Shown here: in pieces, positions 6,192-27,178 of the stretch
Position numbering within the stretch: the stretch's first letter is position 1
Layout of the letters: every line of letters starts with the position of its first letter
DNA from: a virus
Length of the DNA stretch: 29,367 bases
Reading direction: 5' to 3' (one strand)
Virus record (IMG/VR): IMGVR_UViG_3300020421_002173
Coordinates: 1-29,367 of that record
Notes under the pieces: model-generated
Seen by the model: only the letters and a program-made list of their open reading frames with translations
What the model was told of the DNA's origin: nothing
The model's database searches: none
Made by a program: the position numbers and the translations under genes

Positions 6192-7004
6192 TCAAGTAGT
6201 TGGCGGTTTACCGTCTTGCCCTGACGTTTCAGTGACTCTACCCAAATAAGGATTGTAGTCCATCAACTCATCAATCGCAATCTGAGCACCTGCATTATTC
6301 CAAAAGTTGGATTGTGCTTCAAAGTTTCCTCTATGGAAAACATCGATGTGTTCAGGATGGATTGATGATCCCAATTCTAACTTATAAAGTAGAAGAGGTA
6401 AAGCATAAGTATTACCTGAGTTGTAGATTAGATCGTCAGCCACTGGACGAGGACGTACCCCGTTATCCAGTTTATACCGATCTTCTCGAATATGCAAGTC
6501 AAGCATTTTCTTAGCATGATGTCTGGTAATCAAGTAACACGCAGTAGAGAATTCGTTTACGAATCTCTTGTGAATCTTGATGTGTACGTCACCAGTCGCA
6601 ATGATAGCGATCTGGCAAACGTCCCAGTCATAAGGTATTCTACAATAAAAATCCTTCCATGTAAAGTTCCAGCACTTCACCAAGTCCAGATTGCAGTCAT
6701 CCTCCATCATCACAGCATAAGGAGCATCAGTCTCTTCATAGAAATGCTTGATTGCTTTGAGGTGTGATGTAACACATCCAATCTCTCCACTAGTTACCAT
6801 CTCAGGGTATCTACCTTTCAAGATCTCACTCAGATCATCCTCTCTACCATCATAAGCAGAGATACGAGTATAGTTATTAATTTCCCAATACTTAAACTGC
6901 TCCTCCATATAATTCCACCTCTCAGGTTGCCCATCAAGATTGATACAATAGATTGGACCGATACCTTTGAGTTTGTATGCGGATTTGTTTTTGTCTCTAA
7001 GCAT
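6192..7004 (-). CDS. GT25-family glycosyltransferase
   Basis: A 270-residue protein of the glycosyltransferase 25 (LPS biosynthesis) family. The N-terminal signature IYCINLDGQPERW (about residues 18-30) and the acidic MMEDDC motif (about residue 101), which holds the divalent metal and nucleotide sugar, are both present, as is GCVTSHLKAI before it. It would transfer a sugar (often galactose) from a nucleotide donor to a glycan or protein acceptor in the cytoplasm. ATG 7004 overlaps the end of the fucosyltransferase gene by 8 bases; an upstream TTG is not used. It is the last gene of the cluster. Confidence 0.88.
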   Translation of the reverse strand: MLRDKNKSAYKLKGIGPIYCINLDGQPERWNYMEEQFKYWEINNYTRISAYDGREDDLSEILKGRYPEMVTSGEIGCVTSHLKAIKHFYEETDAPYAVMMEDDCNLDLVKCWNFTWKDFYCRIPYDWDVCQIAIIATGDVHIKIHKRFVNEFSTACYLITRHHAKKMLDLHIREDRYKLDNGVRPRPVADDLIYNSGNTYALPLLLYKLELGSSIHPEHIDVFHRGNFEAQSNFWNNAGAQIAIDELMDYNPYLGRVTETSGQDGKPPTT

Positions 7005-7797
7005 CAATAATCTCCCACTGTTCAGGATATAAGTCTTTAGTATCTAAGTGTTTGTTATTTGGACCGAACCATTTATCCGGTGCAATGACTCTACCTCTGT
7101 TTGCTAACCATGCTCCCCACCAACTATATGTGCTGTTCGCAATAATAAAGTCAGAACATAATGACATCAAACAAAGGTCAACATAACTTGTGTTGCCTGT
7201 AGCAATCAAGAATCTATCATGGTCAAAAATATCCTGTTGTCTGCACCACTCAGGATCATCTGTAAATATAGCAACATTTCTACGATTGTCAAATAAACTC
7301 AATGCCCTAGCATAATAATCAAGATCTAGATTATAATGATTGCCTGAGTTCCTTAAGAAGTCACCACGTCTGATATGTAGTGCGATTGGATTAGAGACAG
7401 ATTGAATCATCTCTTCGCATGGACTTTTGATACCATCAATGAATGAGAAATCTTTACGAACTTCCTCCTCAATATGTTTGAAGTATTTTTCTGATTGAAA
7501 ATATCCAACAAGACTTATGTTATCTGGACAAGAGTTAAAGATATTTTCATTAAAAGTAAATCCTTCCTCCTGCACATATCCATTTCCTATAATCGAGTTA
7601 TTATTGCACCCGCCCATAATAAAAGGTTCAAACAATTCAATCCTCAAACGATTGCCTAAGATATCAACAATCAGTTCATTATGATTAGGTACACAATATT
7701 CGTGACCATTATTATTCGCAATGCCTTTTAGTGAAGCATACTGGAACATTTGGTTTCCCAACTGTCCCATTTTTCCTAAGTAATCAAATCCAATCAT
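6997..7797 (-). CDS. Alpha-1,2-fucosyltransferase-like (GT11)
   Basis: A 266-residue GT11 enzyme, which adds fucose from GDP-fucose to a galactose 2-OH. Motifs: GQLGNQMFQYA at residues 11-21, HIRRGD at 141-146 (GDP-fucose binding) and ANSTYSWWGAWL at about 220-231, all diagnostic for the family. The donor would come from the Gmd and GDP-fucose synthase genes at the start of the cluster. Its ATG forms an ATGA overlap with the upstream gene. A second GT11 gene lies at 18421-19191, implying two fucose linkages or two acceptors. No membrane segment is visible. Confidence 0.93.
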   Translation of the reverse strand: MIGFDYLGKMGQLGNQMFQYASLKGIANNNGHEYCVPNHNELIVDILGNRLRIELFEPFIMGGCNNNSIIGNGYVQEEGFTFNENIFNSCPDNISLVGYFQSEKYFKHIEEEVRKDFSFIDGIKSPCEEMIQSVSNPIALHIRRGDFLRNSGNHYNLDLDYYARALSLFDNRRNVAIFTDDPEWCRQQDIFDHDRFLIATGNTSYVDLCLMSLCSDFIIANSTYSWWGAWLANRGRVIAPDKWFGPNNKHLDTKDLYPEQWEIIDA

Positions 7798-8057
7798 TTT
7801 TTGCTAAGGTTGTTTTTGTTTATTACATTTATGACATAGATCATTTCATTTTGTAGTCGGTTGATTTTATCATCATGAGACTTTAACCAATCATAATTTA
7901 GAACAGATTCCTCTATTTCTCCATCAGTATTAGTTTCATCATTGAGATTCCACTTTTTTATAGCCCAAGCAGGAGGAGTAGATGTTTTCCAAGGATAGAG
8001 AATATACTCTAGTTCAGCAACTATTCCGTAAATCCATATGTGAATAGATCTAAGCAT
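7794..8057 (-). CDS. Hypothetical protein within the sugar cluster
   Basis: An 87-residue protein with an aromatic N-terminus (MLRSIHIWIYGIVAELEYIL, possibly membrane-associated), an acidic middle and a helical C-terminus (INRLQNEMIYVINVINKNN). It overlaps the SDR gene upstream by 8 bases and the fucosyltransferase downstream by ATGA, so it is translated as part of the cluster. It resembles no transferase and might be an accessory or membrane-tethering factor; this is inference. Confidence 0.65.
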   Translation of the reverse strand: MLRSIHIWIYGIVAELEYILYPWKTSTPPAWAIKKWNLNDETNTDGEIEESVLNYDWLKSHDDKINRLQNEMIYVINVINKNNLSKK

Positions 8058-8943
8058 TTTGTTTAACCCAGTTTTCTAGTTCAACTTTAGGTTTCCAACC
8101 AAATGTGTTTGCCATTCGATCAATATTAGCAAGACTGATTCTTACTTCACCGATACGTGGAGGAATATTGGTTTGATTATCTGAAATCCAATCAGCAATT
8201 TGATTTACTGAATAGTTTTGACCTGAACCTATATTATATACCATGCCAAAGGCATCGTCATCTACCTCTGTTATTGCTGCTAATATATTAGCATTAACTA
8301 CATCAGATACGTGAACAAAGTCTCTACATTGTTCTCCATCACCAACGATTGTAAGTGGTTCTTCCGCATCTCTTTGACGACAGAAGATACCAATCACAGG
8401 AGCATACTGTCCTTTGCGTGGTGCTCTATGTCCATAGACATTGAAGTACCGAAACACTACCGTAGGCAAATCAAACAAGTCAGTATACATCTTGCATAGT
8501 TTTTCTCCAGCAACTTTAGTTACTGAATATGGATTCAAACTATCATCAGGTTGTGTTTCCACATTAGGATAGTCATTGTTACCATAACCAGAAGATGTTG
8601 AAGAGTATATAACTCTCTTCACACCTGCTTCTCTGGCACACTGAAGCACCGTACAAGTGCCTAATACATTCTTCTGGACTGCTGCGATAGGATTTTCAAT
8701 AGCAGGTCCTATACGGGATTCTGCAGCAAGATGAAATACATAATCAACATCATCATAGAATGTACGAGTTGTTTGATAGTTGCTTATATCTTGATTTACA
8801 TAGGTTGCTTTATCATTAAAATAAAACTGTTCAGCATCTGCACTTTGATTATCGATTACAGTAACAGTAAAACCAATTTTAATAAGTTCATCCACAATGT
8901 GAGAACCAATAAATCCTGATCCTCCGGTCACTAATGCTTTCAT
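8050..8943 (-). CDS. NAD-dependent sugar epimerase/dehydratase (extended SDR)
   Basis: A 297-residue extended short-chain dehydrogenase of the UDP-glucose 4-epimerase type. TGGSGFIGSH at residues 6-15 binds NAD; YSSTSSGYG and the catalytic YSVTK (Y-x3-K) follow, then RYFNVYGHRAPRKGQYAPVI and a GDGEQCRDFVHV substrate-binding segment. It would interconvert a nucleotide-bound sugar, for example UDP-Glc/Gal or UDP-GlcNAc/GalNAc; the exact substrate cannot be read. At 297 residues it is slightly short for GalE. It overlaps the HAD-nucleotidyltransferase gene by ATGA, so its product could also act on the heptose-type nucleotide sugar. Confidence 0.9.
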   Translation of the reverse strand: MKALVTGGSGFIGSHIVDELIKIGFTVTVIDNQSADAEQFYFNDKATYVNQDISNYQTTRTFYDDVDYVFHLAAESRIGPAIENPIAAVQKNVLGTCTVLQCAREAGVKRVIYSSTSSGYGNNDYPNVETQPDDSLNPYSVTKVAGEKLCKMYTDLFDLPTVVFRYFNVYGHRAPRKGQYAPVIGIFCRQRDAEEPLTIVGDGEQCRDFVHVSDVVNANILAAITEVDDDAFGMVYNIGSGQNYSVNQIADWISDNQTNIPPRIGEVRISLANIDRMANTFGWKPKVELENWVKQNA

Positions 8944-9680
8944 AATCTATTACTCCTGATGACTGATTCTGCAATGTTAACTTTCAACTTGGTTGTTGAA
9001 TACCCATGTCTTCTAGTAATCCAAACGATAGGAAGACCTAAACCTTTTCCACTATAAGAACCATCAGAATAATCGTCACCTAAAAAACGAACATCATAGT
9101 CACCACTTTCTAGGTAACTAATAAATGTATCTTCTGATTGATAGACAACAATATCATCAATATATTTGATGGACCTTAGAATCTCTTTCCGGTCTTCAAG
9201 TGATTGAACTGGTTTGAGTTTATAAGGACGTGCTAAAGCAGGGTTTTCATGAAGAGCAATCGTAAGATGATTACAATGCTCTTTAGCTTGCTGAAACATT
9301 CTTACATACCCAGGATGGATAATGTCAAATGCCCCAGCAACAATACCTTTCTTCAGTGGTTGTCGCTTCTTCCATTCTTCTACATCAATGCCTTTATCAT
9401 CAATGAAGATATCTGCTGTGGGTTTGTGGAACATTGGTTCCAACTCATTATATTTAACACCCCAGTCAGAAAGCATTTCTTTAGTGAGTGCTGTCCAATC
9501 TTTACCTGACCCTCTACCCCTAGCAGTCATAATAATAATATGATTCCCCTCATCATAAAGACGATTAACTGTCTCTACCATAAAAGGAATAGGTGTAGAG
9601 TCCCAGTATCTTTGTCCATGTCCATCAGGATTGCAAGGAGTATTGCATATTGTACCGTCTAGATCAAAGCAATATTTCAT
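8940..9680 (-). CDS. Fusion: HAD phosphatase plus TagD-like nucleotidyltransferase
   Basis: A 246-residue two-domain enzyme. Residues 1-108 are a HAD phosphatase: nucleophile motif FDLDGT (D6, D8), MTARGR at 51-56 and FIDDKG with D94/D95. Residues 109-246 are a cytidylyltransferase-like domain: GAFDIIHPGY at 116-125, FLGDDYSDG at about 199-207 and a STTK motif at 228-231, close in plan to glycerol-3-phosphate cytidylyltransferase (TagD) and the HldE C-domain. The usual HxGH reads HPGY, losing the second His. With the GmhA-like and HddA-like genes upstream it would dephosphorylate a heptose bisphosphate and activate the 1-phosphate with a nucleotide. ATG 9680 overlaps the upstream stop (ATGA). 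Confidence 0.85.
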   Translation of the reverse strand: MKYCFDLDGTICNTPCNPDGHGQRYWDSTPIPFMVETVNRLYDEGNHIIIMTARGRGSGKDWTALTKEMLSDWGVKYNELEPMFHKPTADIFIDDKGIDVEEWKKRQPLKKGIVAGAFDIIHPGYVRMFQQAKEHCNHLTIALHENPALARPYKLKPVQSLEDRKEILRSIKYIDDIVVYQSEDTFISYLESGDYDVRFLGDDYSDGSYSGKGLGLPIVWITRRHGYSTTKLKVNIAESVIRSNRL

Positions 9681-10207
9681 ACTACTCCATGAAGAAAGAT
9701 TTGATGAACGCATTCTACCACACCATATGATTCACTATCAACATGATAGTCCCATTTAGAATACTTTGAAGTTACGTGTGCATTTCTTCTCATAGTATTG
9801 TGTGGACTGAATCCAGTCAATATCCCATGAGATATACCATTATCCTCGCAGTACCTCTGACAGTTCAACATATTGAGAGACTCACCACTTGAACTCATTA
9901 AAACAACAAGAGTATCATCTTCAACATGGTATTCTAAAAACTTTGTATAAGATTTTTCATATCCATAATCATTTGCAAGCATTGTAAGCATTGAAGGATC
10001 TGAAAATACAGACACCTTCTTCTTATGAAACTTCATATAATCTTGCGATATATGAGAAGCGACAGAATTACTACCCCCATTACCGAGAATAATAATCCTG
10101 TCGTGACTGTTAAATTGATTTTGATACTTTTGAAACTCGTCCTCCATATGTGCGGACTCTAGTGTTTCAATGTAAGGTTTAAAAGGATTCACCTCGTACA
10201 CCATCAT
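9677..10207 (-). CDS. SIS-domain sugar-phosphate isomerase, GmhA-like
   Basis: A 176-residue SIS-domain protein resembling sedoheptulose-7-phosphate isomerase, the first step of heptose synthesis. It has ILGNGGSNSVASHISQDYMK (about residues 40-59), the family's GNGGSAA-type phosphate loop, then the typical SMLTMLANDYGYE and LMSSSGES (second phosphate-binding loop). It would make D-glycero-D-heptose 7-phosphate in the cytoplasm. ATG 10207 or 10204 are both possible; either way the gene overlaps the kinase upstream by about 26-29 bases and the fusion gene downstream by ATGA, tying the three into one set. Confidence 0.87.
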   Translation of the reverse strand: MMVYEVNPFKPYIETLESAHMEDEFQKYQNQFNSHDRIIILGNGGSNSVASHISQDYMKFHKKKVSVFSDPSMLTMLANDYGYEKSYTKFLEYHVEDDTLVVLMSSSGESLNMLNCQRYCEDNGISHGILTGFSPHNTMRRNAHVTSKYSKWDYHVDSESYGVVECVHQIFLHGVV

Positions 10208-11126
10208 AATTAACTTTTATTTTAACAGTATCATATGGAATAGTCAACTTATTATGTTTAGAGAACGTCAAAAAGAACCCTCCATTACCAGCACCACATA
10301 GTTTATGTGATATCACACTACTATTATCTGATAACTCTTTGTCTATTTTACGAATCCTTTCATTCTCTGTGATGATATTACTTGTCTTTTTCTTTTCTTC
10401 CCAAGTATGATTGAGTTCTTTTAAAAACTTTTTACTATCACCGGTCTTTAGATAATCATATGCTTTACTAACAATAGGAAGTAATGGTTTTACTTTCTCT
10501 AGATTCATACTGATATCTCTAAGAACTTCTTTTGAGTTCCTTGTAACTCCAGTAAATACCAACTTGATATCAATATCATCAAATACATCGGTAGAAAGAA
10601 ACTCATGCTTAACACTGCCTGTATCCAAGAACTCTATCCTTTTAAACCCTCCAATACCACAACCATAAGGATCTTGATACCCACAGAAAGGATTAAACTT
10701 AACTTCAATATCATATGCTAATCTACAAATATCAGTATCAGATATTTTCTTATGGAGAAATAGAGAGCAAGCCTTGATCAAACTAATGATATAAGATGAT
10801 GAAGAAGCAAGTCCACTACCCTGAGAGAAAGCATCACTTGTTAATGTGACTTGTACTGGAGGCATATTAAAATGTTCCAATACACCACGAACAACTTCAT
10901 TTTTAATTTCACTAATATGATTTACTTCTTCTCTACGTGAGTAGTTAATAACATACTTATGATCTTTCTTGTTAAATCCAAACTTATCTTGACTGATAGT
11001 TACATAAGTTTTTAAATTAGATGCAAAACTAATCACACTACCATATCCATACTTAGCAACAAAGTATGGATTATCAGTAGATCCACCAAATAAAGATATT
11101 CTTAACGGACAACTAGCAATAATCAT
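10179..11126 (-). CDS. GHMP-family sugar kinase, HddA-like
   Basis: A 315-residue GHMP kinase like D-glycero-D-manno-heptose 7-phosphate kinase (HddA). It starts with the family's PLRISLFGGSTDNP (residues 7-20), has the ATP-binding loop GSGLASSSSYI at about residues 107-117, and a C-terminal GAGNGGFFLTF motif 3. It would phosphorylate C1 of the heptose 7-phosphate, giving the 1,7-bisphosphate that a phosphatase then trims. The gene begins the second half of the sugar cluster, divergent from a plus-strand small gene. The leader is very AT-rich and shows no ribosome site. Confidence 0.87.
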   Translation of the reverse strand: MIIASCPLRISLFGGSTDNPYFVAKYGYGSVISFASNLKTYVTISQDKFGFNKKDHKYVINYSRREEVNHISEIKNEVVRGVLEHFNMPPVQVTLTSDAFSQGSGLASSSSYIISLIKACSLFLHKKISDTDICRLAYDIEVKFNPFCGYQDPYGCGIGGFKRIEFLDTGSVKHEFLSTDVFDDIDIKLVFTGVTRNSKEVLRDISMNLEKVKPLLPIVSKAYDYLKTGDSKKFLKELNHTWEEKKKTSNIITENERIRKIDKELSDNSSVISHKLCGAGNGGFFLTFSKHNKLTIPYDTVKIKVNYDGVRGESF

Positions 11127-11339: not shown

Positions 11340-12017
11340 TTATATTACATTAAGAGGCAGAAAGAAGTTTCTCATATAGTTCATACACTCATGACTTTCT
11401 TGTTCGGAAAGAGGAGCATAAGTAACTCTTTGGTTTCCACCAGAGCTAGTCTGAAAGAAATAGGGATCATCAAAGGCATATACATTATGCCAACGTTGAA
11501 TCTCTGCGAATCCAATATCTGGATGGTCTTCTATATCATATCCAGCATGAAGACAAACTCTTCTCACTAGATCAATATATCTTTTTCGTAGATACATTAT
11601 AGCATGACCACCGAGCATATTATAAACTTGAAGAATTCCAGATTCATACTGCTCCCATTGAACAAAAGGTCCAGAGTGACTATTCATTCTACCCCAACCT
11701 GAGATACCAAGATAGAAAGCATCAGCATTCTCTGGTATCTCAATAATGGGATTCCATCTCTTTACTGCAATGTCATCCTCAAGAACAACAAATGGAGTTC
11801 CGAGTGGAGAAACAACTGGGTTGATAGCACTTTCAATCGCATTTAACATAGAACGAGCAGTTCCTGCCTGTCCTATTTGATGCTTAGTGGCACTGATTCT
11901 TCTTACGTTCTTAATTCCCAGTTCACTGAGAATACCTTTCATCCTTTCATTCCTTTCTACAGCATCATCAAGATTGATATAATAGAAAGGAATATCTCTA
12001 AGATCTAAGCGCAGCAT
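11340..12017 (-). CDS. GT25-like glycosyltransferase
   Basis: A 225-residue protein with the GT25 opening IPFYYINLDDAVERNERM (about residues 9-26) and the acidic FVVLEDDI motif (about residues 76-83), the nucleotide-sugar/metal site. An YLGISGWGR and a GGHAIMYLRKRYIDLV segment follow as in the family. It would transfer a sugar to the growing glycan. Its ATG lies inside the end of the GT6 gene (20-base overlap). It ends the first transcription unit of the cluster, tail to tail with the plus-strand small gene. Confidence 0.82.
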   Translation of the reverse strand: MLRLDLRDIPFYYINLDDAVERNERMKGILSELGIKNVRRISATKHQIGQAGTARSMLNAIESAINPVVSPLGTPFVVLEDDIAVKRWNPIIEIPENADAFYLGISGWGRMNSHSGPFVQWEQYESGILQVYNMLGGHAIMYLRKRYIDLVRRVCLHAGYDIEDHPDIGFAEIQRWHNVYAFDDPYFFQTSSGGNQRVTYAPLSEQESHECMNYMRNFFLPLNVI

Positions 12018-12699
12018 GATTCTTCTTCAGAGCAATAATTTTACCAGGAGAGAAAGGATAATCAGTTCCGATGAACTCCTCAGCATAACAATAGGTTGGA
12101 TCTAGATCTAGAGTAGGAGGATTGTTAATCAGATACCTATTCATATGTGACTCATCATGCCACAGTGCTACAACTCCATTCTCAAGATCAGTATTAACAT
12201 TGTTAGCGATCTTCTCAGACATTGCCATAAAGTTTTCTGTTCTTCCACCATTAAATCCACCAGCATAGTAGGTGACAGTCTTTTCATCTGGTGAAACGAA
12301 AGCACAACTAGTAGGGTTGCGATCAAAGGACTGTTGAGCAGAAGATGCTAGTGATTGATATCCATGTCTAGTGGCAACTAGATCTCCACACACTTCATCT
12401 GGTGTCACAACACCGTCAATACGCATATCTGCATCAAAGTAGAAGCAATAGTCATGCTCCATAATGAAGTCTTTTTCTTTCATGAAATAGTTGTAACGCT
12501 TAAGCGTAGGCATAGGCCAAGGTTCATGATCAATATAATGTACTCTTACATTATCACCTGCCTCTTCAATCTCATGATCAGTAAAAAGAAGACAATTAAT
12601 TTCTGCACCAGGACAAAACTTTTCAGAAATATCTTCATACAGTTTCTCTACAAACTGAATGTATTTGTTTGTAGCAATCGTTAGAATACAGATTTTCAT
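11998..12699 (-). CDS. ABO-like GT6-family glycosyltransferase
   Basis: A 233-residue GT6 enzyme, the retaining alpha-1,3-Gal/GalNAc transferase family that includes the human A and B blood-group enzymes. Diagnostic motifs are YFDADMR (residues 87-93), YYAGGFNGG (144-152) and WHDESHMNRYL (180-190). The metal-binding DxD is kept (DAD at 89-91), whereas most bacterial GT6 enzymes carry NxN. No membrane anchor is present, so it is a bare catalytic domain. ABO-type GT6 enzymes act on fucosylated galactose, and two GT11 fucosyltransferases lie in the same cluster, so an ABO-like epitope is a reasonable inference. A cyanophage GT6 is known from Prochlorococcus phage P-SSM2. Confidence 0.9.
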   Translation of the reverse strand: MKICILTIATNKYIQFVEKLYEDISEKFCPGAEINCLLFTDHEIEEAGDNVRVHYIDHEPWPMPTLKRYNYFMKEKDFIMEHDYCFYFDADMRIDGVVTPDEVCGDLVATRHGYQSLASSAQQSFDRNPTSCAFVSPDEKTVTYYAGGFNGGRTENFMAMSEKIANNVNTDLENGVVALWHDESHMNRYLINNPPTLDLDPTYCYAEEFIGTDYPFSPGKIIALKKNHAALRS

Positions 12700-17574: not shown

Positions 17575-18424
17575 TTAAATACTCCTTTTTCATTTCATTA
17601 AACACCTTTGCAATACCGATGCCTACAGTTGTTTTAGGTATCCACCATCCAGTAATAAAAGTGTCTGGTGCGTTTCTTTTATCAAGTTGAACATTATCTT
17701 TAGCAAGTCCAGGTTTAATTTCAACATCATGCCTACCAATCAATCCAAACTGACCTTGAATCATCATGGCAATTTCTTTAATAGATTCAGATCTAAATGA
17801 TGTGATATGAAGTGGATCTTCTGATTTAAAATCAGTATAGTTTTCCATAACTGTCTCTAATGCTTCACAGCAGTCTTCAGCATAAAGAAACTGCCTTTCT
17901 TCTGTGCCATCAGTCAACATTTCAAACTCACCTTCCTCAAATCCTTTACGAATGAAGTCAGTGATGACGTGTGCTTTTTCATGGTCTTTCTCAATACCAT
18001 ACACATTCCAAAACTTAACAATAAGTCCTTTGAGTGATGTAGTATAAAGTTCACCAACTCTCTTCATTACACCATACGGTGAGTAACTCATATTACTCAT
18101 CTGAGATGATGCAAAGACAAAACGCTTATGATACTTCTCAAGCAGACCAAATGTCTGAGCCATAATACGAGTATTGTTATCAATAAACTGGAAGCTGTGT
18201 TGATACTTTTTAAGGTATCTTGAACCTCCAACATCAAATGCAAGAAAGAATACAAAGTCAGATTCTTTGATTACATGTTCAAGATTAAGATTAGGGATTT
18301 TTGTAAGGTCTTCCCCATCTCCTCTAGCAACATCAAACTCTAGTACATCATGCCCCTTTCCACGCATATACTCAGTCAAATAAGCACCTATCTGACCGCT
18401 TGAACCCAAGATAGCAATCTTCAT
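17567..18424 (-). CDS. NAD(P)-dependent sugar epimerase/reductase (SDR)
   Basis: A 285-residue extended SDR. The N-terminal GSSGQIGAYLTEYM (residues 7-20) is a variant GxxGxxG dinucleotide fold; FASSQMSNMSYSPYGVMKRV holds the catalytic Ser and Y-x3-K (YGVMK); WNVYGIEKDHEK and EERQFLYAEDC are substrate-side motifs. The product may be an epimerised, reduced or dehydrated nucleotide sugar, and the substrate is not readable. It overlaps the fucosyltransferase by ATGA and the GT2 gene by 8 bases. Confidence 0.85.
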   Translation of the reverse strand: MKIAILGSSGQIGAYLTEYMRGKGHDVLEFDVARGDGEDLTKIPNLNLEHVIKESDFVFFLAFDVGGSRYLKKYQHSFQFIDNNTRIMAQTFGLLEKYHKRFVFASSQMSNMSYSPYGVMKRVGELYTTSLKGLIVKFWNVYGIEKDHEKAHVITDFIRKGFEEGEFEMLTDGTEERQFLYAEDCCEALETVMENYTDFKSEDPLHITSFRSESIKEIAMMIQGQFGLIGRHDVEIKPGLAKDNVQLDKRNAPDTFITGWWIPKTTVGIGIAKVFNEMKKEYLND

Positions 18425-19191
18425 ACCTTAATCCATTCGTCTAGTAGAATTTCAGATCCAGTTCCGTCTGCTAACCATTTCTTAGGTCCAATAGTAAACT
18501 CAGAGTTACCAAGAAATGCTGCCCACCAACTGAAAGAACTATTAGCAATTATATGATACTTACATTTAGACATCAAGTGTAAGTGACCAACATCCTTATA
18601 GTCATTATATTTAGAGTCAACAAAAGTGATAGGATTATCTGTTTTAAGATTCTCTTGACACCACTCTACATCCTCAGAAAACACATAGTAATGAACAGAA
18701 GCAAACGTTTCTTCTACAATTTTCATTGCTTTAGAATAGTAACTAGCATCCATAACACCATGATGTGCTAATGCTGTAGGATTTTTGATGTAGTCTCCAC
18801 GTCTTACATGAATAGCAACTGAGTTTTCTGCAGCAAGAATCTCTTTCTCCATTTCTTTTACATCATCGCAAAAGTTAATCTTGAAAGTGAAATGTTCTCT
18901 TACCTCATCAATTACATTGTCAAACTCTTCTACATTTTGAAACCATCCTTCAAGAATGTGTCCACCTGGTGGTACATCCTCACAGCAGTCATACTTGATA
19001 TTAAACAAATCAAGATCAAACTTCCTACCAGTAAGACCATTCTTGATAACTTTTCTTTCTTGTCCTTCATAAAAACCACAATCAAGAATCAAGTTGGTAT
19101 ATTGAGGTGCTTGCTCTAAGGCAGACAATCCTTTGGCGTACTGAAACATTTGATTGCCCAGTCCGCCCATCAATCTTACATATAAGTTCAT
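18421..19191 (-). CDS. Alpha-1,2-fucosyltransferase-like (GT11), second copy
   Basis: A 256-residue GT11 enzyme with GGLGNQMFQYAKGL (residues 9-22), HVRRGDYI at 128-135 and IIANSSFSWWAAFLG near residue 215-229. It uses GDP-fucose made by the genes immediately upstream in the cluster. Its sequence differs widely from the GT11 at 6997-7797, so it is not a recent duplicate and probably serves another acceptor. It overlaps the GDP-mannose epimerase gene by ATGA. Confidence 0.93.
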   Translation of the reverse strand: MNLYVRLMGGLGNQMFQYAKGLSALEQAPQYTNLILDCGFYEGQERKVIKNGLTGRKFDLDLFNIKYDCCEDVPPGGHILEGWFQNVEEFDNVIDEVREHFTFKINFCDDVKEMEKEILAAENSVAIHVRRGDYIKNPTALAHHGVMDASYYSKAMKIVEETFASVHYYVFSEDVEWCQENLKTDNPITFVDSKYNDYKDVGHLHLMSKCKYHIIANSSFSWWAAFLGNSEFTIGPKKWLADGTGSEILLDEWIKV

Positions 19192-20231
19192 TTTTTAGTT
19201 TGTTCAAGAATCCAGTTATATGTGATACGAATACCTTCCTCAAGTGATCGAGTATAATCCCAACCAAGTTTTTCACGAACAAGATCATTGTTAGAGTTAC
19301 GTCCACGAACACCGAGAGGAGCATTCAGTTTATGCACCCTACGAACTACTTTACCTGATACCTTACCAGTAATCTCAGTAAGTTGATTAATCGTTACCAT
19401 TTCTTCTGAACCAATGTTCACTGGTCCAATGAAATCAGAATCCATTAAGCGACGTGTTGCTTCAATACATTCATCAACATATAAGAATGATCGAGTCTGC
19501 TTTCCATCCCCCCACACTTCAATCGAACCGCCAACTTCAGGAAGATTTGCTACCTTTCTACAGATTGCTGCTGGTGCCTTCTCTCTTCCACCATCCCAGG
19601 TCCCCTCTGGACCAAAAATGTTGTGATATCTAGCAATCCTAACAGGAATGCCATGATTACGATTATACGCAAGGTAGAGGCGCTCAGAGAAAAGTTTTTC
19701 CCATCCGTATTCTGAGTCTGGGTTCGCAGGGTATGCTGATTCTTCACGGCAGTCGGGATTATCAGGGTCCAGTTGATTGTGTTCTGGATACATGCAAGCA
19801 GAACCAGAATAGAAAATCTTAGTACTATTTACATCCTTTCTATTATTGAAAGAATGCTGCTCTTCAAGAACATTAAGATTGATACTAACTGAGTTATGCA
19901 TAATCTCAGCATCATTCTCACCAGTAAATACAAATCCTGCCCCACCCATATCAGCAGCAAACTGATAGATCTCATCAAAAGGTTCAATGTATCTCTCAGG
20001 AACAGAGTTATAGAAGTTGCCTTGCTCACCCTTATACTGAATAGCACGACGAACGAAATCTACATCACGTAGATCACCCTGCACAAACTCATTTGCTTCG
20101 GTATCAGAGTATTCGGGATACTTTAGATCAACTCCACGTACCCAGTATCCTTCTGATCGAAGTCTCTTAACCATATGACTTCCAATAAATCCACCCGCAC
20201 CAAGCACTAGTGCTGTCTTTGTATATTCCAT
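19188..20231 (-). CDS. GDP-mannose 3,5-epimerase-like SDR
   Basis: A 347-residue extended SDR resembling GDP-mannose 3',5'-epimerase, which yields GDP-L-galactose and GDP-L-gulose. LGAGGFIGSHMVKRL (about residues 10-24) binds NAD; AADMGGAGFVFT, YSGSACMYPEHNQ and the catalytic YGWEK match GME-type enzymes, as do RYHNIFGPEGTW and WGDGKQTRSFLYV. ATG 20231 is chosen; an upstream GTG would extend into the promoter region. With Gmd and GDP-fucose synthase it forms a GDP-mannose branching set: one precursor, two L-hexose donors. A late promoter motif lies 20 bases upstream. Confidence 0.85.
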   Translation of the reverse strand: MEYTKTALVLGAGGFIGSHMVKRLRSEGYWVRGVDLKYPEYSDTEANEFVQGDLRDVDFVRRAIQYKGEQGNFYNSVPERYIEPFDEIYQFAADMGGAGFVFTGENDAEIMHNSVSINLNVLEEQHSFNNRKDVNSTKIFYSGSACMYPEHNQLDPDNPDCREESAYPANPDSEYGWEKLFSERLYLAYNRNHGIPVRIARYHNIFGPEGTWDGGREKAPAAICRKVANLPEVGGSIEVWGDGKQTRSFLYVDECIEATRRLMDSDFIGPVNIGSEEMVTINQLTEITGKVSGKVVRRVHKLNAPLGVRGRNSNNDLVREKLGWDYTRSLEEGIRITYNWILEQTKK

Positions 20232-20250
20232 AATTTTAGTAAACCCTTCG

Positions 20251-20258
20251 TATTTATT
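20251..20258 (-). promoter_or_regulatory. T4-type late promoter (AATAAATA) before GDP-mannose epimerase
   Basis: AATAAATA on the minus strand, 19 bases before the ATG at 20231, partly inside the end of the GDP-fucose synthase gene. It could give late transcription of the epimerase and downstream sugar genes. Confidence 0.5.
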
Positions 20259-21210
20259 ATACCATATTTTCCATATACCACCTATAGGTATCTTGAACAC
20301 CTGACTTCAAATCAATGCTTGGTTTCCATCCAAGTTCTTTGATTTTATCGATACTCATAACTTTTTTAGGAGTTCCATTAGGTTTTAGAGTATCCCATAT
20401 AATACCTCCCCTGAATCCCACAACACTTGCAATAGTTTGAGCAAGTTCTTTGATGGTTACATCCTCACCTGTTCCGACATTCAGATGCTCACGTCCATCA
20501 TATTCAAGCATAGCAGTCAGACATGCACTAGCAAGATCATCAACGTGAAGGAACTCACGCATTGGAGATCCGTCACCCCATAAAATTATATCTGGAGTAA
20601 ATGGTCCACCCAAATCATGATCAATAACATCTTTGCCTTCATGAAACTTACGAATCATTGCTGGAAGCACATGACTATTATGTAAATCAAAGTTGTCATT
20701 AGGACCATATAGATTACAGGGCATCAAACTGATTGCATTGAATCCATATTGGTCTCGGTATGACTCACACATTTTGATTCCAGCAATCTTAGCAATAGCA
20801 TAAGAATCATTTGATGGTTCTAATGGGCCAGATAAGAGTTGATCTTCTGTAATAGGAAGATTAGGAAACTTAGGATAGATACAAGACGATCCTAAGAATA
20901 AAAGTTTTTCAACTTTATTTTTATAAGCAGAATCAATAATATTATTTTGAATCATAAGATTCTCATAGATCATCTGTGCTTTATGATCTCTATTTCCTAA
21001 GATTCCACCTACTCTAGCAGCAGCAACAAAGACATAATCAGGATTAACTGTCCGCATATAGATTTGAGTCTCTACTTGACTAGTAAAGTCTACTTGCTTT
21101 CTTGTTGCTTCAACAATATTTGTATATCCATTTTTCCGCAAGTGTCTTACGATTGCAGAACCAACCATACCCTTAGCGCCAGCAACTAAGATTCTAGAAT
21201 CACTATTCAT
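20257..21210 (-). CDS. fcl: GDP-L-fucose synthase
   Basis: A 317-residue enzyme that epimerises and reduces GDP-4-keto-6-deoxymannose to GDP-L-fucose with [20 protein letters not shown] (near residues 10-24) is the GxxGxxG fold, AAARVGGI (catalytic-site segment), [12 protein letters not shown] with the Ser, [16 protein letters not shown] with Y-x3-K, and [12 protein letters not shown] are all hallmarks of WcaG/Fcl. Length is normal. ATG 21210 overlaps the Gmd stop by 8 bases; it directly follows Gmd in the pathway and on the DNA. Confidence 0.95.
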
Positions 21211-22201
21211 TTTCACACATGTCCTCAACTAATTGACTAAATGCAATCTCAGGTTCCCACCCAAGTTCTGTTTTGGCTTTAGTATAATCTCCAAGAAGAG
21301 TTTCAACTTCAGCAGGTCTGTAATATCTAGGACTGACACGGACAACAACGTTTTTAGTATTCGTATCAATTCCAATCTCATCTTCTCCCTCACCTTTCCA
21401 TACAATATGCATACCAAAATATGGAGCACACTTCTCAACAAACGTCCTAACAGAGTATTGTTCTGATGTAGCAACTACATAATCATCAGCAGTATCTTGC
21501 TGAAGCATCATCCACATTGCTCTTACATAGTCTTTAGTATGTCCCCAATCTCGTTTTGAATCTAGATTACCAAGAGTAAGTACATCCTGCTTACCATCAC
21601 GTATTGCTTTCAGTGCTCTTGTAATCTTTCTTGTTACAAAGGTCTCACCCCGTCTGGGTGATTCGTGATTAAACAGGATACCAGTACAAGCATACATCCC
21701 ATATGCCTCTCTATAGTTCTTAGTGATCCAGTATCCATATAGTTTTGCTACTCCATAAGGAGAGCGTGGATGAAACGGTGTGGTTTCTCTTTGTGGAATC
21801 TCTTGCACCTTACCAAACATCTCTGATGTAGAGGCTTGATAGATTCTTACTTTATCTTCCATACCAAGAAGACGAACTGCTTCTAAAATACGAAGTGCTC
21901 CAATAGCATCAACGTCAGCAGTATACTCAGGCATTTCAAAGGAGACCTTCACATGACTTTGAGCACCTAGATTGTAGATTTCAGTAGGTTGAACCTTCTG
22001 AATAACTCTTACAATATTGGTGGAGTCAGTGAGGTCTCCGTAATGAAGTTTAATTTTATTGAATATATGATCAATCCTATGGGTATTAATCAAAGAGGCA
22101 CGTCTTACAATACCATGAACTTCATATCCTTTTTCAAGTAAAAGTTCAGCAAGGTAAGACCCATCCTGCCCTGTAATACCAGTAATCAGAGCAACAGTCA
22201 T
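21203..22201 (-). CDS. gmd: GDP-mannose 4,6-dehydratase
   Basis: A 332-residue extended SDR converting GDP-D-mannose to GDP-4-keto-6-deoxy-D-mannose with bound [24 protein letters not shown] (residues 6-25), [39 protein letters not shown] (Y-x3-K) and [15 protein letters not shown] are nearly invariant in Gmd. Length is slightly below the bacterial ~370. It is the first gene of the sugar cluster, with a sigma-70 promoter at 22226-22255. Host GDP-mannose is the likely substrate since no mannose pathway is encoded here. Confidence 0.96.
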
Positions 22202-22225
22202 CAATCAAGGATATATTACCATTGA

Positions 22226-23539: not shown

Positions 23540-23568
23540 ATTATATTTCAAATTTCTAGATAAGTCAA
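23540..23568 (-). promoter_or_regulatory. Near-consensus sigma-70 promoter for Phd-like gene and tRNAs
   Basis: TTGACT (23568-23563), a 17-base spacer and TATAAT (23545-23540) on the minus strand. The -35 box lies within the last codons of the 887-aa fibre-like gene. The transcript would start near 23533, about 15 bases before the antitoxin ATG. Confidence 0.85.
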
Positions 23569-26211
23569 CTCCTTCAGGTCAATATTTGAACCACTTGTTC
23601 TAACGTCATTCTGAATGGACATAATACCCATCCTGATTGCGCCACCACCAAGACTGCTATCAGAGGTAGCAATCCTTTCTGGTGCTGATGGATTATCAGG
23701 AGTTACATCCCACCACTGAACTTTATTATCAGATGTTCTATATCTATACTCAAAATGGTGTTCGTAACTATTACTACCATCCCAATTTTTTGATGCATGA
23801 TACTTAGAGTTTGAAGTATTGTATACCCAACCATTAGTAACACTAGTGTCCTCTCCAGTATCCCATCTCCAATACAAATCAGAGCCAGTATCAACATGAG
23901 TTGATGAACCCATATCTTCTGTCTTTCCAGTTGGTCCCTGCCATCCACCAGCAGCAATCCAATAGTAATGATTAGTACCAGATGATGGAATTCTAAACTG
24001 AATCTTTTGTCCAGGAAGTAGATCACGAGTAGAAGACATATTAACAAAAGAACGAGCACCACCATCATCTCTCCAGTTCCAACCTTTTCCAGGATTTTCT
24101 CCAGTATCATATCGGTAAGCAATCATTTCCCATGACTGGTCCCTTTTTGTAAATGTTGGAGCAGCAACTAATGCATTTTTGCCACCCATATAAATCGTCT
24201 GAGCATTAGAGAATGCATTGTTAGATGTACCAAAGGCAACATATCCTTGTGACTCATTAATCAATCGAATCTTGCCATCAGTAGGACTGTAATTCAGTGT
24301 TAAAATCTCACCTTTAGGGAATGAAACTGATGTAGCAGTCGCAACTGTTGTGTTCTTACTGGCATTATCATCACCAGATTCCATATAGTTATCAGCACCT
24401 GATGGATTTACAAAGTTATTAACAGTATCAGTTCCAATGGTATAACACATGTCCCAATTCAAATGGTTGTAAGATCTTGTACCATAAGCATCATCAGTGT
24501 CACCAACCCAAATACCTAAAGTATAGAAATGATTGACAACAGATGAATTCAATGAAGTGAATCTATATTCATAACCTGGTTCTAATACTTGTGGCCAATA
24601 CACAGGATGTAAGTCCCTCTTACCCGAAGTACTGAATGGATTTGCAAGTTCTGTATTTGATGTTACTCCAAAACCAACATACCAAGTGGAAGGATATTCA
24701 TAGTCAGTAACTGTACTAATACCTGGTAGATTACCAGTCGCATTCACACCAAAACTAATCGTTACGGGATTACCATCTTCTGCTGAAGAAGCAGTAGCAA
24801 TGATTTGTCTAGTTCCTGTTATATCGTGCAGTTCTAATTTGTTCGTATGCTTATTATATGCGAGTGCCAGTTCAGTAGAATTTGATGCAATAGTGTAGTC
24901 TGCAGTTGCTCCTGCACTAGGAACAAAACCTTTTGAATCATAAGTACCAGTACCAAATTCAACCTTTGCTCTTTCAAATATTAATGATCTACTCCAATAT
25001 GAAATATTAAATGCATCTGCAGGAGTATAAGTTAAAACACCACCCCATCTACCTAGACCATAATTTTCACCAGTTGCACCACTCACATGAGTCCATCTCA
25101 TCTCCTGGCCAGGTGATAGTTGAGTTCCGTAGTAGTAAGGATTGGTATTATTTGATGGTGTTGCAGTGTAGATTCTAGAACCAGCAGTAGCAGAACCATT
25201 GCCAGGATCATTATACTGTTGGTAATAAGCAAACTCATTCACTGTTACATCAGCAGTAGGTACACCTGATATCATTGTATAGGCAATACCACTGTAAGAA
25301 GTCGCACTAACAATGTTAAATGTTGATGTTCCTGTGGTGTCAATACCAGCAATACTTCCACTACCTCCACCGCCACCACCTAATCCAACACCATAATTTG
25401 TGATGTTAAGAGTAGAAATACCAGTGATGTTTGCACCACTTCCTGTAAAGGATGTGGCAGTAATGATACCAGTGGTGTTGACACTTCCATCTGTTCCAAT
25501 ACCACCACCTCCTCCACCACCACCAGCGGAGTATCCTACAATCTGTGATGTTGTGATACCAGTGATAGCAGAACCATCACCCTGAAATGAGGTGGCGGAA
25601 CAGATACCAGTAATCAGTGCTCCATAACTCTTGGTCTTAAACTTCTCAGCATTACCATAGAAAAAAGAAACATTATAATCACCAAAGACTGCTCTCTTGA
25701 TATTCTTATTTGGATTCCACATCACTGTAAAATCCTGTGAGGAAATGTGTAGGTTACCAGTTCCTTTATCAGCAATATTAGAATCAGTTCCGTCGTGCCA
25801 GATTTGTAAGTCGTTGTCCTCACCAAAGTTGAGGATTACATCATCAGCACGGGTTGTGCCAATACCAACATTACCTACTGCATTATCAGAAGTTTGGAAT
25901 TCAGTGACTATGTTGATACCATTGATAGTATCAGTGGTTGAACCATAAGAGACCTTTGATGAAAGTGTTGTCTTATCACCATTCCAAGTTCTAGTTCTAA
26001 ATTCAGTGTAAGGAATATTATAAAGTAACTTATATTCTACACCAACATCCTCACCAATATCAGTTTGACAAATATCTAGATTGTTTACATCACCACTAGA
26101 TGACATCTTTGCAGAAACAGCACCAACTGCTTCTTTTTTAAGTGCTCTCGCAGCACCACCAAAAACAATCTGGTCGTCTTTTTTGTTTCTTCTAATTACA
26201 TATTGTGTCAT
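23548..26211 (-). CDS. Large fibre-like virion protein with three related C-terminal modules
   Basis: An 887-residue protein. Residues 1-200 are a mixed N-terminal part including NVGIGTTRADD, a segment common in phage fibres. Residues 200-310 hold repeats of the form SATSFQGDGSAITGI / TATSFTGSGANITGI and two glycine runs (8 and 6 G). The rest has three related modules marked by LSPGQEMRW (365), LEPGYEYRF (543) and LLPGQKIQF (731), each ending in a KLELHD-, KIRLIN- or KVQWWDV-type strand and an aromatic GRWGG/GIWVG/GGWQG loop. This looks like a long trimeric fibre or adhesin with carbohydrate-binding modules; receptor binding is inference. It follows the 320-aa partner gene by 4 bases. Confidence 0.85.
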   Translation of the reverse strand: MTQYVIRRNKKDDQIVFGGAARALKKEAVGAVSAKMSSSGDVNNLDICQTDIGEDVGVEYKLLYNIPYTEFRTRTWNGDKTTLSSKVSYGSTTDTINGINIVTEFQTSDNAVGNVGIGTTRADDVILNFGEDNDLQIWHDGTDSNIADKGTGNLHISSQDFTVMWNPNKNIKRAVFGDYNVSFFYGNAEKFKTKSYGALITGICSATSFQGDGSAITGITTSQIVGYSAGGGGGGGGIGTDGSVNTTGIITATSFTGSGANITGISTLNITNYGVGLGGGGGGSGSIAGIDTTGTSTFNIVSATSYSGIAYTMISGVPTADVTVNEFAYYQQYNDPGNGSATAGSRIYTATPSNNTNPYYYGTQLSPGQEMRWTHVSGATGENYGLGRWGGVLTYTPADAFNISYWSRSLIFERAKVEFGTGTYDSKGFVPSAGATADYTIASNSTELALAYNKHTNKLELHDITGTRQIIATASSAEDGNPVTISFGVNATGNLPGISTVTDYEYPSTWYVGFGVTSNTELANPFSTSGKRDLHPVYWPQVLEPGYEYRFTSLNSSVVNHFYTLGIWVGDTDDAYGTRSYNHLNWDMCYTIGTDTVNNFVNPSGADNYMESGDDNASKNTTVATATSVSFPKGEILTLNYSPTDGKIRLINESQGYVAFGTSNNAFSNAQTIYMGGKNALVAAPTFTKRDQSWEMIAYRYDTGENPGKGWNWRDDGGARSFVNMSSTRDLLPGQKIQFRIPSSGTNHYYWIAAGGWQGPTGKTEDMGSSTHVDTGSDLYWRWDTGEDTSVTNGWVYNTSNSKYHASKNWDGSNSYEHHFEYRYRTSDNKVQWWDVTPDNPSAPERIATSDSSLGGGAIRMGIMSIQNDVRTSGSNIDLKELTYLEI

Positions 26212-26215
26212 GTCT

Positions 26216-27178
26216 TTATCCTACGATTGTCATAAACGCAGAGTCAGTGACACTGCAAGTACCATCTGCTCTGACTTCTAATTCCCCATATCCATCTTTA
26301 GAGTCTTGGTCACCAACATAGAAAGTGAGGGTGTACTGTTCTTCGTATTCAATACCTGCACCATCATTTAGGAGAGCACCAGGTGCAACCAAATAAAACT
26401 GGTATCCATCGGGTAGAGTGTAGGCAATCCTTGCCTTTAGTGTAAGATTGTCAACATTGGGAATAACCTTGATACCAAATCTGAAAATCAACCATCCATT
26501 CGTTGGTAGTTGATCCAGTTTGATTCTTTGTGTTGTCGTATCATAGATGCGTGTTACACCTTCTGGTAAATTCTCCCTACTGGTAGAACCTGATGTTCCA
26601 TCATTAGTTACCTTAGTCCAGGTATCAGCACTCAGAGCAATAGGATTACTTTCTAAGTTCTTATCACTGACGTATTCAAATCCATCATTGTTATTTTCTC
26701 CACCTCCACCAACGGTAGAGAGTTGTTGTTGTATTCTATTTAAGAATACATTATAGTGTTTCTGTAAATCATCAAGAGTGGCAAACTTCTGATCCAGTGG
26801 AGTAATAGGATCATCACCCATCTTCTCATCAGATGGTTCAGAAAAAAGACCTAGAGACTTTTCAATTAAAATATTTTTCTCTATCTCCTCAACTTCTGGT
26901 TCAGGTTCTTTAACCTTGAATTCTTCTCTGAATTCTTCTGCTACCTCAGCAATAATCTCTTCCTTCTTTTCTATTGTCTCAGAGAACAACCACGATTCAA
27001 AGGCAACTGCTTGTTTCGTAACCTTCTCAGCGTTCTCTTTATCTTCGACAATAGAATCCTTCACCTGTGATAAGATTGAATCAATATCAACCTCACCGAC
27101 AAGTTCTTTCATCTCATTTTTTTTCTTCTTTTTATCTTCAGCAAGAAGTTTGAAGAAATCTCCTAACCCATCCGACAT
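26216..27178 (-). CDS. Virion-type protein with helical N-terminus and beta C-terminus
   Basis: A 320-residue protein. The first ~155 residues are charged and helical, beginning MSDGLGDFFKLLAEDKKKKK, with long glutamate-rich stretches (residues 90-100); a GGGG hinge at 157-160 leads to a beta-rich C-terminal domain with FRFGIKVIPNVDN and ALLNDGAGIEYEEQYTLTF. The MSDGLGDFFKLLAEDKKKKK opening recurs in cyanophage virion proteins. It sits directly upstream of the large fibre-like gene (4-base gap) and behind a late promoter, so it is probably a baseplate or fibre-attachment protein. The exact role is not known. Confidence 0.78.
   Translation of the reverse strand: MSDGLGDFFKLLAEDKKKKKNEMKELVGEVDIDSILSQVKDSIVEDKENAEKVTKQAVAFESWLFSETIEKKEEIIAEVAEEFREEFKVKEPEPEVEEIEKNILIEKSLGLFSEPSDEKMGDDPITPLDQKFATLDDLQKHYNVFLNRIQQQLSTVGGGGENNNDGFEYVSDKNLESNPIALSADTWTKVTNDGTSGSTSRENLPEGVTRIYDTTTQRIKLDQLPTNGWLIFRFGIKVIPNVDNLTLKARIAYTLPDGYQFYLVAPGALLNDGAGIEYEEQYTLTFYVGDQDSKDGYGELEVRADGTCSVTDSAFMTIVG

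Follow-up and report, generated by a model that had tools for sequence, protein, structure and literature searches.

A four-gene cassette on the minus strand of the IMG/VR virus record IMGVR_UViG_3300020421_002173 very likely encodes a complete route from sedoheptulose 7-phosphate (S7P) to a modified nucleotide-heptose for a surface glycan of the infected cyanobacterium, with substrates, product and role predicted from the encoded proteins. The record, a 29,367-base (29-kb) fragment referred to here as the window, belongs to a T4-like cyanophage, as marked by high-light-inducible and ferredoxin genes and by many DNA matches to cyanophages; statements on gene content cover this fragment. In order of transcription, the co-oriented cassette genes encode a GHMP kinase, a SIS isomerase, a fusion of a HAD phosphatase with a nucleotidyltransferase (HAD-NT) and an extended short-chain dehydrogenase/reductase (SDR). 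We put the probability of a nucleoside diphosphate (NDP)-heptose route, in which CDP is the likeliest nucleotide, at about 0.6.

In the proposed pathway, the kinase would phosphorylate C1 to generate a 1,7-bisphosphate, the HAD domain would remove the C7 phosphate, and the fused NT domain would attach a nucleotide to the 1-phosphate, with CTP as the likeliest donor and CDP-heptose as the product. The fusion would bring C7 dephosphorylation and nucleotidyl transfer together in one protein. The SDR would then epimerise the activated sugar, which the surrounding glycosyltransferases would consume.

Layout and conservation of the cassette

Inspection of the window places the kinase gene at 10179-11126 and the isomerase gene at 9677-10207, both intact open reading frames (ORFs), of 315 and 176 amino acids (aa), respectively, that overlap by 29 nucleotides (nt). 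The HAD-NT ORF extends over 8940-9713 (257 aa) when its first ATG is used, but the start is most likely the ATG at 9680, because the proteins of relatives start at residue 12 and position 9680 is marked by an ATGA (9677-9680) that overlaps the isomerase stop. The whole gene then spans 8940-9680 and overlaps the isomerase gene by 4 nt, with the HAD domain (residues 1-104) at 9369-9680 and the cytidylyltransferase-like NT domain (residues 108-246) at 8943-9359. A second 4-nt overlap (8940-8943) joins it to the SDR gene at 8050-8943.

The cassette unit is four genes, SDR included, rather than three. Among 52 independent IMG/VR viral contigs that hold all four genes, 51 keep the order kinase, isomerase, HAD-NT and SDR on one strand; the matched stretches of successive genes lie a median of 6, 0 and 23 nt apart, and the flanking glycosyltransferases vary between contigs. 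Catalytic residues of the cassette proteins are kept in more than 97% of 71-91 relatives, and because of this retention and the constant order, the cassette is more than a chance arrangement. The isolated phage SynMITS9220M01 has an identical gene order, with proteins 64-75% identical. Its record labels the fusion a 'hypothetical protein' and the SDR an ADP-heptose 6-epimerase, and its announcement names a kinase, an isomerase and an epimerase as genes for 'heptose-related lipopolysaccharide synthesis' (PMC7378029). An earlier note on this DNA had described three overlapping genes, suggested the neighbouring SDR as a partner and proposed a search for the same order in phage genomes. The kinase, isomerase and HAD-NT genes are indeed real and intact and overlap as described (using start 9680), the SDR is adjacent in 51/52 contigs and looks like an epimerase, and the order recurs in those contigs and in SynMITS9220M01.

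The cassette is also present in cellular genomes. The full fusion occurs in 5 of 400 Cyanobiaceae genomes, and in each of the 4 examined closely the other three genes lie alongside; the single-cell genome Prochlorococcus AG-363-P19 also has the cassette, as a genome scan showed. Host cassettes sit in cellular chromosomes, where those examined lie near clpP, ilvC, a cobD-like gene, a sugar transferase and glycosyltransferases (names judged from translations). They form a clade separate from the phage cassettes, with support of 1.0 in the concatenated tree and of 0.87-0.99 in the four individual gene trees, and any host-phage exchange is therefore old; recent exchange was considered and rejected given this distinct clade. 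A plasmid search returned NT matches of the TagD/RfaE2 type only. In the 595-kb uncultured phage LR756511 (L002:6986-8362), an HddA-like kinase is fused to a related NT domain in a 458-aa protein, with an SDR gene just downstream.

Evidence for a probable heptose substrate

Gene context and kinase similarity make a heptose the probable substrate, with good confidence. Five distant relatives have the kinase (L063, L064, L066, L068 and L070), and in each of them a transaldolase gene lies between those for the isomerase and the kinase. These genes, including L063:8732-9439 and L070:4337-5035, occur in sugar-activation operons of viral contigs, unlike the usual cyanophage talC setting, and the L070 transaldolase scores 323 bits against a curated cut-off of 282. 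Transaldolase makes or uses S7P, an intermediate of the Calvin cycle and the pentose phosphate pathway.

The proposed sugar 7-phosphate 1-kinase has HddA as the top of its 12 NCBIfam models (103 bits). Its best PDB matches are of the heptokinase type (3k85, 4n3o and 4usm/4usk), with fucokinase and galactokinase ranking far lower. In the heptokinase WcbL, mutation of R13, D22, S118-120, Q162 or D163 abolishes activity (PMC4691232), and the corresponding residues are all present in the window kinase as R9, D18, S109-S111, Q151 and D152. By these comparisons the kinase appears closest to heptokinases, in support of a heptose. Family-model scores of the cassette proteins fall far under the curated NCBIfam equivalog cut-offs (HddA 600, gmhA 209, RfaE domain II 181, TagD 165 and heptose_epim 274.6 bits), and the proteins are therefore homologues rather than certified equivalogs.

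For the isomerase, gmhA is the best NCBIfam model (51 bits), and Foldseek searches with an AlphaFold2 (AF2) model of mean predicted local distance difference test (pLDDT) 88 return GmhA structures as top matches, with a template-modelling score of about 0.8. It is not of the KpsF/KdsD type, with no match to the kpsF model and no alignment with the Mosigvirus isomerase (L206). Residues H52, D56, E165 and H173 at the metal site, along with V49 at the relay position, are invariant in 43 sequences. The same H-D-E-H set is found in isomerases of L003, of L007, where the gene neighbours an HddA-type kinase (152 bits), and of the transaldolase-linked L063. Because the set recurs in this manner, it looks like a second isomerase class, distinct from classical GmhA, rather than the product of decay.

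Inspection of the HAD domain indicates a phosphatase of the EcbF/BcbF/AfhF kind, not GmhB. The catalytic residues of that kind (D6/D8, T52, K86 and D94/D95) are present and at least 90% conserved, the EcbF-BcbF (capsule phosphatase) model matches 7 of 12 family members, and no GmhB model appears among the NCBIfam matches of the fusion. The nearest structure is 9IQW (profile E 9e-20), deposited under the title 'phage HY126 encoded D-arabinose 1,5-diphosphate phosphatase AfhF', and identity to the Mosigvirus homologue is 35%. The most economical proposal for the domain is therefore that it takes the terminal phosphate off a sugar 1,omega-bisphosphate. The AF2 model of the whole fusion is of high predicted quality (pLDDT 92.6, predicted template-modelling score 0.87). 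A full-text literature search on AfhF turned up only related DNA-modification papers.

Relatives of this HAD family occur in other arrangements. A 299-aa Cyanobiaceae protein (L204:9723-10622) fuses the same HAD family to a GmhA-type isomerase (gmhA 165 bits) and follows a NeuB-like gene; a second such fusion begins at about 19240 in L203 and is cut by the locus end. Both carry the classical H-E-Q-H ligands. Small HAD proteins with no SIS domain are labelled 'phosphoheptose isomerase' in cyanophage records (L004:8086-8430; L008:6983-7294 and 8624-8953) and in PHROG 1238, a mislabel that probably arose through HAD-GmhA fusion proteins.

The SDR falls in PHROG 540 (nucleotide-sugar epimerase), and its closest solved relatives are 4-epimerases, with UDP-glucose 4-epimerase 4zrm as best PDB match. 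Enzymes that act as 4,6-dehydratases carry a DE/TE pair, where the SDR sequence reads STSSGYG. Because this dyad is missing and the nearest solved relatives are 4-epimerases, the SDR probably epimerises the activated sugar. NCBIfam scores are 157 bits for GalE versus 117 for HldD (heptose_epim), and the ADP-heptose 6-epimerase label of the sister-phage SDR is not supported by these scores.

The nucleotidyltransferase and the choice of nucleotide

The NT domain matches Pfam CTP_transf_like (44.6 bits) and has a TagD-type fold, not the NTP_transferase (GlmU/RmlA-type) fold expected of HddC. NCBIfam scores were dropped as a means of separating ADP from CDP, since RfaE domain II and TagD score equally (58 versus 57 bits) and hidden Markov model scores therefore do not decide the nucleotide; a profile search of PDB sequences, a tree and a residue tally were used instead. 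The family profile finds ECT at 3.6e-24, TagD at 1.7e-21 and HldC at 1.2e-11. Foldseek ranks TagD first, with TagD and TarD over HldC by a small margin. In the tree, cassette NTs and CTP enzymes split from HldE/HldC with a support of 0.976, on very long branches.

The residue tally concerns the cytosine-stacking Arg of CCT, ECT and GCT (PMC6060094, PMC8262930). R223 of the fusion (9012-9014), the equivalent of TagD Arg113, is present in 45 of 46 cassette-group NTs and 3/3 CTP references but in 0/36 HldE/HldC sequences, and the sole exception (L154) looks like a misgrouped HldE. This Arg is support, not proof, because P-SSM2-type NTs keep it yet group with HldE. The motif RTxGISTT is partly kept as R-x-H-x-Y-S-T-T, stacking Arg included. 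Alignment of the NT domain reveals none of the HldE-C/HldC substrate motifs TNG, NSD, KG, ExTP, KGG and FExxxSTT (PMC7993394). By sequence and modelled fold, the NT domain thus resembles cytidylyltransferases more than HldE/HldC, and if an NDP-heptose is made, CDP would be the somewhat favoured nucleotide. A full-text search for 'CDP-heptose' within the literature examined found no paper with the term.

The NT domain carries HPGY (residues 122-125, 9306-9317) in place of HxGH. This Tyr-for-His replacement occurs in 76 of 82 viral relatives and also in the closest host and solitary bacterial NTs, with HAGH or HSGH in distant NTs. The other nucleotide-binding positions are kept (H122, R164, D203, R223 and S228). 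Solitary HPGY NTs, 48-52% identical, are found in metagenome-assembled genomes of a gammaproteobacterium (L098:6995-7396) and a Flavobacteriaceae member (L099:7001-7411); their neighbourhoods were searched for a clue to the substrate, and no sugar-activation or heptose genes adjoin them.

The earlier interpretation is, overall, partly supported. Its HddA-like kinase holds on model, structure matches and essential residues, and its S7P starting point gains support from the transaldolase genes of five relatives and from HAD-GmhA fusions. The GmhA-like isomerase stands as to best model and fold but not as to metal ligands, and the HAD/TagD-like fusion is real and of TagD-type fold but lacks the HxGH signature. 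The HAD domain is of the EcbF/BcbF/AfhF kind and not GmhB. The hint of a cytidylyl enzyme agrees with the placement of the NT domain, but a TagD-type fold alone does not exclude ADP, because the second domain of HldE has the same fold.

Alternative products, setting and known systems

Several observations weigh against a CDP-heptose route. The isomerase has H-D-E-H where GmhA has the zinc ligands H64, E68, Q175 and H183 (H-E-Q-H), and Val where GmhA has relay D61 (PMC5705639). Both HxGH histidines, His17 among them, are essential in TagD (PMC8262930), and HPGY retains one. These changes count against formal family membership, yet both are compatible with chemistry of the same kind. An arabinose bisphosphate is the substrate of the nearest characterised HAD, the level NCBIfam scores of the NT domain do not favour CTP, and all activities are predicted from sequence and models. 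HddA gives the alpha anomer, and to our knowledge the only HxGH enzyme acting on heptose 1-phosphate (HldC/HldE) takes the beta anomer. Marine Synechococcus lipopolysaccharide (LPS) analysed so far contains no heptose (PMC4515613), which either argues against a heptose product or places the sugar in other strains, in another surface polymer or in infection only.

The same heptose route could instead end in ADP-heptose, in which case the NT domain would be a divergent adenylyltransferase of the HldC/HldE-C type and the SDR a divergent 6-epimerase of the HldD type. In the known heptose enzymes with this fold the nucleotide is ADP, the RfaE domain II model that scores level with TagD matches 12/12 family members, and the sister-phage SDR is annotated accordingly. 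We consider this outcome unlikely in view of the missing HldC substrate motifs TNG, NSD, KG, ExTP and KGG (PMC7993394), the stacking Arg that sets 45/46 cassette-group NTs apart from 36/36 HldE/HldC, the tree split of 0.976 and the greater similarity of the SDR to GalE than to HldD.

The most serious rival raised by the structure search has the cassette produce an NDP-arabinose for DNA or surface decoration, in the style of RB69-like Mosigvirus, through ribulose 5-phosphate, arabinose 5-phosphate, the 1,5-bisphosphate and the 1-phosphate. AfhF is the closest solved HAD relative, with the Mosigvirus homologue 35% identical, and SIS and HAD genes adjoin in Mosigvirus too. Against this, the Mosigvirus isomerase is of the KpsF/KdsD type (110 bits) and dissimilar to that of the window, the Mosigvirus 561-aa protein is unrelated to the window kinase, relatives carry a transaldolase, and the setting is one of glycosyltransferases and host surface-polysaccharide loci, not of DNA-modification genes. 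With the HAD alone homologous, the RB69/AfhF pathway was not kept as the identity of the cassette, and an arabinose product seems distinctly improbable. Similarly improbable is a non-catalytic NT domain that serves as scaffold or regulator while another host or phage enzyme makes the nucleotide sugar. The Tyr in 76/82 viral relatives and the essential His17 of TagD (PMC8262930) speak for a dead enzyme, which is nevertheless less likely because the remaining nucleotide-binding positions are kept and because an HPGY domain is fused to a kinase in LR756511, unexpected of a mere phosphatase scaffold; an HddC-like gene, moreover, is not beside the cassette within the window.

The surroundings of the cassette in the window encode glycosyltransferases (families 11, 25, 6, 1 and 2), methyltransferases, further SDRs and a GDP-mannose 4,6-dehydratase. 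The dehydratase (552 bits, above its cut-off) and GDP-fucose-synthase-like genes at 19188-22204, together with two family 11 glycosyltransferase genes (6997-7797 and 18421-19191), suggest that a GDP-deoxyhexose such as L-fucose is made by the same cluster. A glycosyltransferase (98 bits) of family 6, to which animal blood-group and alpha-1,3-galactosyl enzymes belong, is encoded within the cyanophage cluster at 11998-12699. An 887-aa protein (23548-26211) with zero Pfam or PHROG matches lies between tRNA genes and adjoins a tail-fibre-like gene (26216-27178).

Heptose genes in a cyanophage are already published (PMC7378029), with the fusion left 'hypothetical' there. In the literature examined, no account turned up of the fusion, of its placement, of the transaldolase link or of the likely activation by CDP. 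Tentatively, and at somewhat less than even odds, we propose that marine cyanophages and some Prochlorococcus and Synechococcus relatives make CDP-heptose by a third route, in which a non-GmhB phosphatase is fused to a Tyr-for-His cytidylyltransferase and S7P of the infected cell is diverted into a surface sugar absent from the marine Synechococcus LPS analysed so far. Routes to activated heptose described in the literature examined lead to ADP and GDP forms; if true, the third would be common to viruses and their hosts among highly abundant photosynthetic cells. It would also explain part of the large cyanophage glycosyltransferase clusters, tie viral glycan synthesis to S7P and correct the common 'phosphoheptose isomerase' mislabel of cyanophage HAD phosphatases. 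HPGY itself offers a departure, open to test, from the HxGH rule for nucleotidyltransferases.

Among known systems, SynMITS9220M01 has the same four genes in the same order, with no pathway analysis in its announcement (PMC7378029). The capsule and O-antigen heptose system of HddA, GmhB and HddC shares the GmhA-fold isomerase and HddA-type GHMP kinase. In contrast, the window HAD is not GmhB, an HxGH-superfamily NT replaces HddC, which has another fold, HAD and NT are fused, and the isomerase ligands differ. The ADP-heptose pathway (GmhA, HldE or HldA/HldC, GmhB, HldD) has in common the GmhA-like isomerase and the NT fold superfamily (HldE-C/HldC) but uses a PfkB kinase, whereas the window has a GHMP kinase, cytidylyltransferase-like NT motifs and tree position, and an SDR nearer GalE than HldD.

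Among phages, the P-SSM2/S-CAM/S-SM2 cluster combines the same HAD family with a cyanophage heptose-kinase gene set but differs in its PfkB HldE-type kinase, in NTs that group with HldE/HldC, in the lack of a fusion and in a GmhA-like gene that does not adjoin. In P-SSM2 itself the HldE-type kinase is split (148 bits to rfaE domain I) and the NT is encoded separately; the stand-alone HAD that accompanies them is a further pointer to heptose. P-SSM2-type second gene sets occur at L004:6974-8430 and L008:1-8953, and the S-SM2 cluster adds transketolase and class II aldolase genes. The Mosigvirus arabinose pathway (AfhF, 9IQW) shares a homologous HAD acting on a sugar 1,omega-bisphosphate and differs in its KpsF-type isomerase, GlmU-like nucleotidyltransferase and DNA-modification setting. 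Finally, the glycerol-3-phosphate cytidylyltransferases TagD/TarD have in common with the window NT domain the fold, the Arg113 equivalent, the (R/K)Y(V/I)D motif and the SxT end, in contrast to which the window enzyme has HPGY for HxGH, a fused phosphatase and a sugar-nucleotide gene context.

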